The notes under the pieces were generated by a model that ran no database searches, was not told the DNA's origin, and worked only from the letters and a program-made list of their open reading frames with translations. A stretch of 64,000 nucleotides of DNA. Source: Artemia franciscana (Eukaryota > Arthropoda > Branchiopoda > Anostraca > Artemiidae). The position numbers and the translations under genes are program-made. The stretch covers positions 30,283,298-30,347,297 of the forward strand of contig NC_088880.1 of the NCBI RefSeq assembly GCF_032884065.1, in the 5' to 3' direction. Shown here piece after piece: positions 47,150-55,735 of this stretch (position 1 is the stretch's first letter; the number at the start of each line of letters is the position of its first letter).

Positions 47150-47425
47150 ACGAAAGTATAACAGTTCAAAATAGGGATGAAATCTTTTAATTGACAGTGA
47201 ACAGATATAAAAAAAATTTTTTACTGGATATTTCGAATACATATACAGTGTTCATCATCAGCACTGCCAGTTTTACTGCTGATGATGAACACTGTATATG
47301 TGTTCGAAATATCCAGTTAAATAATTTTATATCTGTTCACTGTCGATTAAAAGGTTTCATCCCTATTTTGAACTGTTATACTTTCGTCATGGAAAGGCAC
47401 TGTGGTCTTTGAAGTTATCTAATTG
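47150..47425. repeat. Family E element, head-to-head inverted pair
   Basis: The left copy (about 47152-47268, minus) and right copy (about 47270-47425, plus) meet at GCACTGCCAGTTTTACTGC. On the right copy the core motif reads CTGATGA (47279-47285), T, GAACAC (47287-47292), a seven-base loop, GTGTTC (47300-47305), GAAATAT (47306-47312). The right end is CATGGAAAGGCACTGTGGTC, shared with the copies near 8.1-8.5 kb and the diverged copy near 55.7 kb. Confidence 0.85.
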
Positions 47426-47429
47426 TCAA

Positions 47430-49800
47430 TTAAATTGACTGAAATGTCAATTGACTAAGAATAGTCTATTAATAGTCAATTAAAAATCCCTTTTTTATTG
47501 ACCTTCATGTGCAGCTATGCAGTTTCTTTGTGGTAGTGGTTGCCAAATTAAAAAAAAGCGGATGAAGAAAATAAGCTAGAAAATAAGCTAAAACTTATGA
47601 AAATAGGATTAAGAAGGTATAGCTCTCCTCTGAAGGTGTAGTTGTACTTGGGAACCAACAGAAGGTTAACTTTTGATTTGTACGACTGAAAAGCGTTGTA
47701 AACTTTAAGCAGCCATTTTTACTTACTTATTTTCATATTTCAAAGTGGCAACATTAAAAAAAATATGGCGCTGCCCTAAAAGCTTCATACATTTGAAACT
47801 ATCAACCCTTTTTTTTTTAGAATATCTCAATTTCAGGTATGAATGGACTGAAGATGGGTTAAGAGGGGGAGGGGGTATTTTTATCGTAATACCATTGCCA
47901 CTTTAATGAAACAGATAGTATGCGCATTTCACCTGCCTTAAAGGCAGTGAAGCTTGAAAGGGTAACTGGGACTATACAATGGCGATTACTTAACGCACCC
48001 ATCCTCAACAGTTCATTTCTCATCACAATATAAAGCGGACTGAAGGCAACATAAGCTCTGCTAGTTTCCTGGCTATGTTTACCGTGAGCATAGCTGCTTT
48101 TTCACTGGCTCAAACACAAGACATCCAATTTAATAAAAAAAAGAAAATACGGAAAAAAAAGATAAACAAACGAACTGGAGCGTCACTCATATTTAAATAA
48201 ATATTGTCAAAAATCTGTCACCTATGCTTCACTACTTCTGAGGTGTTCCGTTTCATCTGCTCCCACCTCGACAGTCTTTAAAAAACTGACGTACAGCCTC
48301 ATATCCAGCCTCATTTGTGGAAAAAATGAGCCAATTCTTCCAGAATCCAGTGATTCACAAATGAACACGACGACAACCTAGAGAGGGTCGCTCACAGAAT
48401 TACCCGCTAATTAGAAATCACTTCCCCGAGACTTAAAAGCAGGAATACTAGGAACATCTTCATCTGGCACGTGGTCTTCGGCCCCCTCCCCCCAAATTTT
48501 GTGAAATGTTTAATTTCCCCATGGTTTCTTGGGATTTCTGGCAAAAGTAGGACATTTATTAAGAATCTAGATACATGTGTGAACCTTTTTGGGGGATTTT
48601 AAAGAATGCAATTATACGGTCAAGTCACTGCCCAATTATTAACCACTTTCTGTCTAACTTTTTACCCTCTTTGAAGTAATTAGTGATTGTACTGTTATTT
48701 TTTTTTTTGTAAAGAGAGTCTGCTTTCCACATCAACACAGAATTATCCTTGATATTAGCGCGTTTATCCCCCCTTTTCAGGATAAAGTACAGCTTTTAAT
48801 GGATTAATTTTGGAAACTATCATTTTTCATTAAAATCAATGTTTTCGCAATAGAAGAACTACCCCCCACAGCACCCATATTACACTGTTAACCCTAAAAT
48901 TTCCCTTTCAGTGGGATATAGTAGATGAATCACTGGTTCTAAACCGCTATGAACATAACCTGAGCCTAGAACGTACTTTTGAGGCTTCAGTCTTCTTCCC
49001 CTTATCCGCTACAATACTACAGATTAAAGCTAAACTTGTTTCCGATATACGTGCTTTTTGCATTTATTTAGTTACTAAATAAAAAAAGTGCTACTTTATA
49101 TCTGCTGTTTCGAAGGTTTTGCCCCCCCCCCAAAAAAAAAAAATCCTGCGTACGTGCCTGATCTTCATGTAATCAGGCAGCAGATTTCAAACAAGAAGAC
49201 AATAGCGCCGAATTACGGAAGATGGTTAAGTGTTGCTCTTAAATGCACGGGATTACCTACATTTCTAGTATTAAAGTTATGACGACCTCTGTTATAATTG
49301 AAAAGATTTTCAAGATCAGGGTTTTCTTGAACACTGACTATGTTATTTATAGTTTCAATTAGGTAATACCAGCAATTATAAATCTATATAAATATGGAAA
49401 TGCCATTTCTGGTAAGACAAACAACTTTGTTTGTTTGAAACCTTATTCGTTTCAAAGATGGCCTTTACTAGGTTGTAGCTATTGCTGCCACCCAGGGGCG
49501 TTTTTTTTGGGGGGGAGGGCAGTTGTCCTCCAAATAATGTGGAGAAAAAATTATTATATATCTCATGCCCCATGGCCCTTGACTACCCGGATGTTGATCC
49601 CTCTTGTCCCCCCAATACAATGCTGGATATTCGCTCCTGCTGCCACGATTAGATATAAAACGAGTAAAAAGAATGAAAAGTTGATGTGGTGCAACATTTT
49701 TACAAGTTAATTCACTGTTTATCTAATGCTTCTATTCTAATTCTACGAAAGGCTGTTTTTTTTATTGCATTCCTTATTTTATTGTTTTATTTATTTATGT
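47430..49800. other. Unclassified part of intron 4
   Basis: No repeat family recognised over most of this stretch. It is AT-rich with a few C-rich and G-rich runs (near 48485, 49125, 49510). Confidence 0.4.
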
Positions 49801-49818
49801 ATTTTTTATAATTTCTGA

Positions 49819-49966
49819 TATATATATATATATATATATATATATATATATATATATATATATATATATATATATATATATATATATATATATATATATA
49901 TATATATATATATATATATATATATATATATATATATATATATATATATATATATATATATATATA
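49819..49966. repeat. (TA)n microsatellite at the Helitron insertion site
   Basis: About 148 bases of uninterrupted TA directly abut the Helitron CTAG end. TA repeats also lie beyond the 5' end (51829-51840), so the Helitron appears to have landed inside a TA tract. Confidence 0.9.
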
Positions 49967-54177: not shown

Positions 54178-54234
54178 TTATAGGACGTTTACCTTTTACC
54201 ATTTTGTATATCTATAGACCAAGTTACTAAAACT

Positions 54235-55400
54235 TAAGCCCCTGAGCAGTGAAGAATGTAAAATATATTTGGTTTCGATCCGTCATTGCGGTTTCTCCTG
54301 GTCTAGCCCGCAACGCTAAGTCAAGACAAAGGATAGTGATAAACATGCGCTTAAAATAATCATCTCTGTATATGTCTCAGAAATTTGATGAAAATTTTCA
54401 ACATTAGTATATGTGTAAATTATTTAAGAGCTTTTTTTTAAGCAAAGCCTAAAAAGTGAACATTAGATTTTTATTTAATTTGCGTGACTAGTAGAAAGCT
54501 GTTAGTACAGAACGATCATAGGTCGTAGAAATCTAGGAGAGGGCTCATCCGTCGTTGGGGCTTCCGCTGGTCTGGCGTGCAATGCTTACTCAAGACAAAG
54601 GATATAGAATAAATGTCACTAAAGAAATTTTGGTACTTATTGGTTGTATAATAGACACTCGGGAAGTGAAGTTCAATTAATGCTAATGAAATGAAGCGAA
54701 ATATGATGAATATATAATAGTTTAGAAACAAATTTGGGCTATATATTTGCACATTAGGGGGGTAGGGTGGGGGTAAAGCGTAGCATATATTAAATACGAA
54801 AACTAACCATTGCTGTATTTAATATATGCTATGCTTTACCCCCCCCCCCCCCCTAATGTGCAAATATATAGCCCAAATTTGTTTGCATAAACCAAACCAA
54901 AATACAAACTAAATGCTTAAATAGAATATAGCTACAACTTATTTGCAACCAAACCAAAGCTAATTTTGTCGTATAAAGAAGTTTCTTGACCAGTTTCTTG
55001 TGTCATGTTCGCATGATACGCGATCGAAATTGTATAGTTTTTATTATATAACCGATAAGTACGGGAATTTTTCCATTTGTGTGGGTTTCTCGAAAATTTT
55101 ATGAAAATCTTCCAAAATTAGTTTTTGTTGCTTGTTATTTAAGAATATATCTTTTAAGTAGTGAAGCTGGCTTAGCTAGCAAAAAGGCTTAGCTTAGCTT
55201 ATCACAACTAGCAAAAGGCTGCGAGTAAAAAATGATCGTAGATCGTAGGATAATCGCAGAAACTAAGGAGACGGCTCACCTATCGTTAAGGTATCTTCCC
55301 GTCTGACGTGCAATGCTAACTCATGACGAATGATGTTGCATAAAGATGTTGAATAAACATGAATAATGATGTTAAATAAACATGAAATTTAAACTCCTAA
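54235..55400. repeat. Family F: about three diverged units
   Basis: Each unit carries AGAACGATCATAGGTCGTAG or similar, then GGAGA(C/G)GGCTCA, then TCTGGCGTGCAATGCTTACT and CAAGACAAAGGAT. Copies are centred near 54300, 54570 and 55290. Between the last two sits the hairpin element at 54700-54895. Confidence 0.5.
54700..54895. mobile_element. Hairpin (MITE-like) element
   Basis: The left arm about 54721-54800 runs TTTAGAAACAAATTTGGGCT through TATATTTGCACATTAGG to ATATATTAAATAC, then a 17-base loop. The right arm about 54818-54890 is its reverse complement, ending AGCCCAAATTTGTTTGC. Arms are about 75 bp with a G/C-run length difference. The TTTGGGCTATATATTTGCA segment also occurs in the inverted repeat at 56.8-57.6 kb. 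No open frame and no clear target-site duplication were identified. Confidence 0.75.
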
Positions 55401-55585
55401 TCGTGGAGTTTTCTATTATTTCATATTTCTCAGAAATTTGGTGAGAAATTTTTAAGCATATTTTTAAGAATTGTTATGCAGAGCATATTAAAAATAGGGC
55501 GTTAAATTCATATTTACTGTTTAAAAAAAATTCATTGTAGTTTTATTAGTCATTTGTTGTAGTAAGTTTTTCCTCTATACATTTA

Positions 55586-55735
55586 TGTTTTGCTGAGGAC
55601 GGCCCTTTGACATAGGGCCGAAATATTCATTTAATTAGATTTCCACTGTCTTATGAAAAGAATTCCCTATTGTTCTTCTTGTTATGGATGTTTGTGATGG
55701 AAAGGCAGTGTGGTCTTAGTCGCTATTTAGGGCAG
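55586..55735 (+). repeat. Diverged family E relative with a hammerhead-core-like hairpin
   Basis: The core motif reads CTGAGGA (55593-55599), C, GGCCCT (55601-55606), loop TTGACAT, AGGGCC (55614-55619), GAAATATT (55620-55627). The segment ends with GTGATGGAAAGGCAGTGTGG at about 55695-55715, the same terminal block found in family E at 8.1, 8.4 and 47.4 kb. The sequence between these two ends is unlike the other copies. Confidence 0.7.

Follow-up and report, generated by a model that had tools for sequence, protein, structure and literature searches.

Minimal type I hammerhead-like motifs in the pseudo-LTRs of Penelope-like elements of Artemia franciscana

Minimal (variant) type I hammerheads of Penelope-like elements (PLEs) have reportedly been described by Cervera and de la Pena in 2014 and by Lunse, Weinberg and Breaker in 2017, as told in the reviews that cite them. 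Here we analyzed a 64,000-nucleotide stretch of the Artemia franciscana genome (NC_088880.1, positions 30,283,298 to 30,347,297 of the forward strand; hereafter the window, numbered from its first letter) in which a preliminary description had noticed several copies of a hairpin, called family E, and one diverged copy, here called D, flanked by blocks resembling the two halves of the hammerhead catalytic core. These hairpins are very probably minimal type I hammerhead ribozyme motifs of PLEs, located at the 5' edge of the pseudo-long terminal repeats (pLTRs), and their catalytic activity is predicted from sequence. The PLEs are of an abundant and already known kind, and the motifs are also of a known kind. 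Drawing on thousands of copies and several stem families within a single genome, the analysis supplies covariation support for selected hammerhead-type PLE hairpins. It also predicts the cut site exactly, so that it can be tested, and points out naturally occurring tandem pairs on which the hypothesis that the motifs act as dimers can be examined.

In review accounts the pLTRs of PLEs contain minimal type I hammerheads that lack helix III and may cleave as dimers (PMC7761336, PMC6155905). The available part of the account of Penelope in Adineta vaga describes a pLTR with a tail of about 31 bp, a shorter inverted pLTR, head-to-head order and a 9-bp target-site duplication (TSD) (PMC3846280). 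For the Anolis element PAc, the accessible text reports that the hammerhead ribozyme (HHR) cleaved only with protein present (PMC11167929). Metazoan retrozymes, as outlined in the available part of their description, measure about 170-400 nt and carry type I HHRs in tandem repeats (PMC7229834).

Hairpin copies and covariation of their stems

The E hairpin, CTGATGA-T-GAACAC-TGTATAT-GTGTTC-GAAATAT, was found at 47279(+), 8512(-) and 8269(-), and the D hairpin, CTGAGGA-C-GGCCCT-TTGACAT-AGGGCC-GAAATAT, at 55593-55626(+). The hairpins are therefore present where they had been described, apart from the end of the D copy, which had been put at 55627 and lies at 55626. Counted by the position at which the motif starts, the window holds six E-type places, one of them mutated (59449(+)), and one D-type place (55593(+)). 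Their extents, including stem I, are as follows.

8227..8277, minus strand (copy 8269): E-type minimal hammerhead motif (stem I, core, stem II, core, H17, stem I), intact
8470..8520, minus strand (copy 8512): E-type minimal hammerhead motif, intact, in direct tandem with 8227..8277, 243 bp apart
8543..8590, plus strand (copy 8551): E-type motif with a 28-nt deletion relative to copy 8512, lacking the cleavage site and the greater part of the second core half
47219..47269, minus strand (copy 47261): E-type motif, left arm, with intact core, one stem II mismatch (GTATTC) and degraded stem I
47271..47321, plus strand (copy 47279): E-type motif, right arm, intact
55585..55635, plus strand (copy 55593): D-type minimal hammerhead motif with intact core and stem II and a weak stem I (2 bp beside the core)
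59441-59491, plus strand (copy 59449): E-type motif with CTGATTA (core G lost) and one stem pair now G.U

The core halves CUGANGA and GAAA are intact in five of these seven copies, and the majority of the window copies are damaged or unpaired relics, present as solo or head-to-head pLTRs. A strict scan of the window (CTGANGA, 0-2 nt, a perfect stem of at least 6 bp, a loop of 3-9 nt, GAAA) returned 4 hits, versus a mean of 0.02 (maximum 1) in 200 dinucleotide shuffles. A scan of a contig database, covering at least 118 loci, served as a chance control only: among 119 unrelated database sites listed with the same flanking blocks, all six stem pairs were formed in 1 and five of six in 3. This control, together with genome counts far above those of reversed controls, ruled out a chance hairpin. 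No relatives were found in viral contigs, where the single match was a chance site.

The 1.27-Gb host genome contains 2,873 exact copies of the E 21-mer (reversed control, 0). Sites with the pattern CTGANGA-N20-GAAATAT and a stem other than that of E numbered 5,289 (2631+2658), versus 12 (6+6) in the reversed control, and in the 30 such loci that were fetched stem II was formed by six of six pairs in 18 and by five in 7. When both the E and D stems were excluded, 455 sites (226+229) were counted against 9 (5+4) in the control; among 100 of these listed, stem II was complete in 42 and had five of six pairs in 32, and when the arms of different rows were combined it was complete in 599 of 5000 combinations (12%). 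The stem II types, which include GGCCCT/AGGGCC, GGTCAC/GTGACC, GGACAC/GTGTCC and GGTCCT/AGGACC, link the E and D stems by a chain of one- or two-pair steps. A single swapped stem by itself falls short of proof; the compensatory change, which had been read from a lone comparison within the window, is now replicated as covariation of stem II in several families.

Stem I adjoins the core: in the E copies ACTG stands before CTGATGA and CAGT after GAAATATC. At 47279(+), ACTG (47275-47278) pairs with CAGT (47314-47317) and the cut is predicted after C47313, that is, after GAAATAT[C/T]. Of the cleavage-site strand, which the preliminary description had left unidentified, stem I has thus been found directly beside the core, where it covaries, whereas helix III is absent in the monomer. 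Another candidate, a long stem III lying further downstream, was seen by eye in the E copies as two AUAU blocks spaced by about 16 nt; it was dropped because stem I then fails, whereas the reading with the cleavage-site residue adjacent to the core covaries.

Covariation was measured in an alignment, A2, of all 30 fetched N20 loci with non-E stems and five of the seven window copies, leaving out 8269(-), which is identical in sequence to 47279(+), and 8551(+), which carries the deletion; 28 rows are distinct. Paired cells amounted to 82.7%, versus 66.5 +/- 1.7 in shuffled alignments, and the covariation measure to 0.505, versus 0.234 +/- 0.022, neither value being reached in any of 500 shuffles; slid controls gave 0.08-0.16. 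Two-sided changes were seen at all 7 pairs of stem I and at 5 of the 6 pairs of stem II, and paired cells made up 88.7% in stem II and 77.6% in stem I. Because the rows derive from perhaps half a dozen families (our estimate) and the shuffle control keeps their relatedness in, the independent events are fewer than these counts. The structure of stem I was originally read from the window E copies; among the 23 distinct rows from outside the window its inner two pairs were standard in 22 and its inner four in 13.

The NUH rule for hammerhead cleavage triplets requires that H is not G. The residue after GAAATAT, which was left free in the search, was C in 14 and T in 14 of the 28 distinct rows and in none of them G or A, and the cleavage triplet, AUC or AUU in 28 of 28, agrees with this rule. 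Since the core is constant in A2 because the search required it, we also examined loci chosen only by the tail that marks the start of the PLE open reading frame (ORF; see below). In all ten loci fetched from 52 matches, which form about five distinct groups (five near-identical loci and two more that are alike), CTGANGA, a stem-loop and GAAAT stand about 100 nt upstream of the tail, with GAAATAT in 9. The genome-wide covariation indicates that stems I and II form a selected RNA structure. The earlier proposal of such a structure with hammerhead core halves is borne out by covariation of both stems and a conserved core; of the findings that had been named as able to overturn it, two could be checked, and both further copies with compensatory changes and a plausible stem I were found.

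Penelope-like elements that carry the motifs

The E copies and the D copy are pLTR copies of two related PLE families. Each pLTR opens with CTGANGA, stem II and GAAATAT, and the longer copies end in a tail of about 34 nt with which the PLE ORF begins: the tail ATGGAAAGGCAGTGTGGTCTT... opens the ORF MERQCGL..., and the same start runs on into a PLE protein in the host genome. Families E and D are homologous outside the hairpin as well, since the stretch from hairpin to tail aligns with a score of 28, reached by 6 of 2000 shuffles for the E copy E47p and by 2 of 2000 for E82m. Around the tail they match at 89-96% over 24-27 nt, and a 21-nt tail is identical between D and 8382-8402.

The loci examined in the host genome tie both families to ORFs with reverse transcriptase (RT) and GIY-YIG domains. 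In the E-family locus L131 (C1:6633600-6637000) GIY-YIG scores 23.0 bits (cut-off 22.6) in one frame, which stops 56 bp upstream of the hammerhead core, and an RT stretch in another frame scores 26.1 bits, under the cut-off of 29.6. The D-family locus L183 (C1:4300280-4305131) has the order inverted pLTR, truncated ORF pieces, pLTR, ORF, pLTR; both RVT_1 (34.7 bits) and GIY-YIG (29.6 bits) are over the cut-off, and the ORF stops 202 bp before the last core. The predicted cut lies about 70-75 nt upstream of the next ORF start. The link to Penelope made in the preliminary description is therefore upheld, the motif being located in pLTRs of elements with RT and GIY-YIG ORFs. The elements resemble PAc, as far as the available text describes it, in being of the RT plus GIY-YIG type with an HHR that has stems I and II; in PAc reverse transcription starts within the first ORF bases of the template, which yields the tail, and a tail is likewise present here (PMC11167929). 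According to the same text, stem II marks where the PAc ORF begins, and PAc is cut at a site 26 bp into that ORF (PMC11167929); here, by contrast, the core lies past the ORF stop at the distances given above in L131 (E) and L183 (D), with the predicted cut before the next ORF.

In the window the following PLE features were found.

8115..8640: PLE-derived insertion with a direct pair of pLTRs (-) and a third, inverted pLTR (+), enclosed by the 10-bp direct repeat TTATTTTGGG at 8115-8124 and 8631-8640
8274..8402, minus strand: PLE ORF start (tail and further codons) in the space separating the direct pLTRs; over 43 aa it shares 88% identity with the E-family ORF start
47150..47421: head-to-head E pLTR pair, the right one with the ORF-start tail (47389-47421), the left one stopping short of it
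53302..54188, minus strand: decayed PLE ORF fragment, the RT piece matching Pfam RVT_1 at 27.1 bits, below the 29.6 cut-off
55697..55729, plus strand: tail of the D pLTR, the PLE ORF start (MERQCGLSRYL)
59439..59560, plus strand: solitary E pLTR without a tail

The E-family ORF-start query was taken from the host locus L132 described below, and L131 matches it at 97% over 67 aa. A flanking direct repeat was present in one of the three window insertions examined, none being found at 47150..47421 or 59439..59560; repeats of at least 10 bp arose in 21 of 3974 random position pairs. Several traits are shared with the Adineta elements as the available account presents them: an optional ORF-start tail (about 31 bp there) on one of two inverted pLTRs, the inverted copy being shorter, head-to-head order, a TSD of 9-10 bp and a 5' palindrome (PMC3846280). 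The available part of that account leaves a ribozyme motif unmentioned, with 0 occurrences of the word "ribozyme" (PMC3846280).

The fragment at 53.3-54.2 kb had been pointed to as the Penelope sequence near the hairpins. It is of PLE origin, but it is probably not their parent, because its middle and GIY-YIG pieces are closest, among the loci fetched, to L195, a member of a third family with stem II GCCT/AGGC. The GIY-YIG piece has no Pfam match and was assigned through its similarity to PLE loci, and the RT piece, for which L195 offers no counterpart, is closest by score to L131.

Direct tandems of the motif were also found. At L132 (C1:41785300-41787400) five E motifs follow one another in direct orientation, 316-338 bp apart, each repeat unit consisting of a pLTR and roughly 200 nt from the start of the PLE ORF, so that this locus looks like an incipient retrozyme-like array. 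Among the 2873 exact E copies, direct tandems spaced by 314-343 bp occur at 7 sites in 4 loci, and those spaced by 227-256 bp at 3 sites in 3 loci, one of which is the window pair at 8227-8520(-). This pair is the only case of two intact motifs in tandem in the window, and among the window places found it is the only one where a dimer could form within one transcript. The pair at 47.2 kb is inverted, and its read-through RNA would more likely fold into one long hairpin.

Proposed cleavage and competing readings

No stem corresponding to helix III is present in the monomer, and a palindromic AUAU stands in its place. By its sequence, this palindrome could pair between two copies. In an element with the tandem order pLTR-ORF-pLTR, the transcript would contain one motif before and one after the ORF. 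Stems I and II would fold locally within each motif, and helix III would probably arise from pairing of the AUAU palindromes of the two motifs, perhaps aided by the protein of the element. We infer that cleavage of such dimers after GAAAUAU[C/U] would release a unit-length RNA that starts about 70-75 nt upstream of the ORF and extends into the next core. In minimum free energy (MFE) folds of short isolated motifs stem II was kept in 6 of 7 and the inner part of stem I in 4 of 7, a partial folding that might be expected if the form needs a partner. Published minimal hammerheads, compared here by their description in reviews, are likewise found in PLE pLTRs with a type I core, without helix III and in tandems suited to dimers (PMC7761336, PMC6155905); the motifs here differ from that description in the AUAU in place of helix III and in an unpaired base before stem II.

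In canonical hammerheads stem II closes directly on the core with the 10.1-11.1 pair, without an unpaired base. Several observations weigh against the hammerhead reading, the first being a departure from this rule. In the 28 A2 sequences a single unpaired base comes before stem II; among these distinct N20 rows stem II is complete in 16 with the unpaired base and reaches at most four of six pairs in the direct register. With one more loop base (N21) a weak signal was obtained (73+54 sites versus 14+11 in the control), and at least five of six stem II pairs were formed in 10 of the 30 loci fetched; many of these sites are due to chance. In 6 of the 30 loci of this partly chance set the direct register reached five of six pairs, and exceptions to the unpaired base may exist. 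Two of the five measures on A2 were weaker (pairs changed on both sides, with 9 of 500 shuffles as high, and further pair types, with 19 of 500). Three stem I pairs were often broken, namely in 16, 11 and 10 of the 28 rows at columns 3-49, 6-46 and 1-51, and the D copy at 55593 has a weak stem I. The AUAU is almost fixed: just 4 D-type sites are doubly changed, of which 2 are palindromic, and hardly any variation is left from which pairing could be judged. The MFE folds also zip up part of the core, and 47261(-) forms neither stem. The Rfam hammerhead models, which had been suggested as a check, gave no match: in searches made without a published PLE motif as positive control, neither the window nor 20 loci yielded a hammerhead at gathering score, and none was found up to E=10 in three stretches. 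Against an essential role, the accessible text on the Anolis PLE reports that HHR mutants left in vitro insertion unchanged and that no RNA-seq reads started or ended at the HHR site (PMC11167929).

A further reading would make these motifs a structural subclass of hammerheads, in which the PLE families of this genome retain a single unpaired nucleotide after the CUGANGA core, ahead of stem II, and only a fixed AUAU palindrome in the place of helix III. Such ribozymes would act as obligate dimers or with the help of protein and, by cleaving after one PLE ORF has ended and before the next begins, would define the unit-length retrotransposon RNA. We hold this to be rather unlikely. Among PLE hammerheads, the additional base and the fixed AUAU might be ordinary or might be a departure, our literature search having found no text that settles the point.

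Three other explanations of the hairpins were considered. They might be DNA or cDNA palindromes which serve PLE replication without any ribozyme, self-priming and head-to-head template switching renewing their perfect stems. The hairpin does stand at the pLTR edge; of the 2873 exact E places, the first 100 listed include 17 opposite-strand neighbours at distances within 5 kb, all of them head-to-head; and for the Adineta PLEs the available account reports 5' pLTR palindromes of 18 and 38 bp and reads head-to-head junctions as self-priming (PMC3846280). Such palindromes nevertheless leave unexplained the covariation of stem I, a stem formed by strands outside the hairpin, the constant CTGANGA and GAAAT blocks in 10 of 10 tail-selected loci and the lack of G after GAAATAT in 28 of 28 rows, and we regard this explanation as very improbable. 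That the motif is a decayed fossil, inactive in every family and conserved through recent amplification of a few sources, would fit the broken cores or stems of several window copies and the descent of thousands of copies from few families; it is improbable, since several families with different stems keep their pairing and an unchanged core, a pattern which amplification alone does not give.

Family E might instead be a retrozyme: a small tandem element, non-autonomous, that moves in the form of a circular RNA of about 240-340 nt produced by hammerhead cleavage. The five-motif array at L132 and the 243-bp direct pair in the window agree with this, and metazoan retrozymes, in the available part of their description, are likewise small tandem repeats (about 170-400 nt) with type I HHRs (PMC7229834), although such repeats were found here at few loci. 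Retrozymes as the main form were rejected because exact E tandems are rare (4 + 3 loci among 2873 copies in the two spacing ranges searched); unlike retrozymes, E has no large tandem family in the spacings tested, its repeat unit is a PLE pLTR with the ORF start, and helix III is missing. This explanation is hardly credible, and minimal type I hammerhead motifs of PLEs are the reading that we retain.

Neighbouring exon-like stretches and repeats

An exon-like stretch at 51926-52130 matches the Pfam CUB domain at 23.0 bits (cut-off 21.4), and a second CUB-domain stretch of this kind, recognized by eye only, lies at 56040-56254. With such stretches on both sides, the PLE copies between them may be located in introns of a host gene.

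The window also contains repeats of other kinds. The inverted repeat at 54726-54884, with arms of 72 bp and 94% complementarity, is probably a small foldback transposon; it gave strong yet sub-threshold Rfam microRNA-precursor scores, and the Rfam microRNA matches on inverted repeats, all below the gathering score, were judged to be artefacts of long hairpins. Large nested inverted repeats at 27009-38429, with arms of up to 544 bp at 98% complementarity, suggest a palindromic repeat arrangement of about 11 kb. The T-rich stretch at 50491-51777 consists of TCCCTGTGTCCCGGTCGTCATTTATAT-type tandem repeats and a 435-bp unit repeated about 1.9 times, and at 58184-58724 a 172-bp unit is present in about 3.2 repeats with 86% match.

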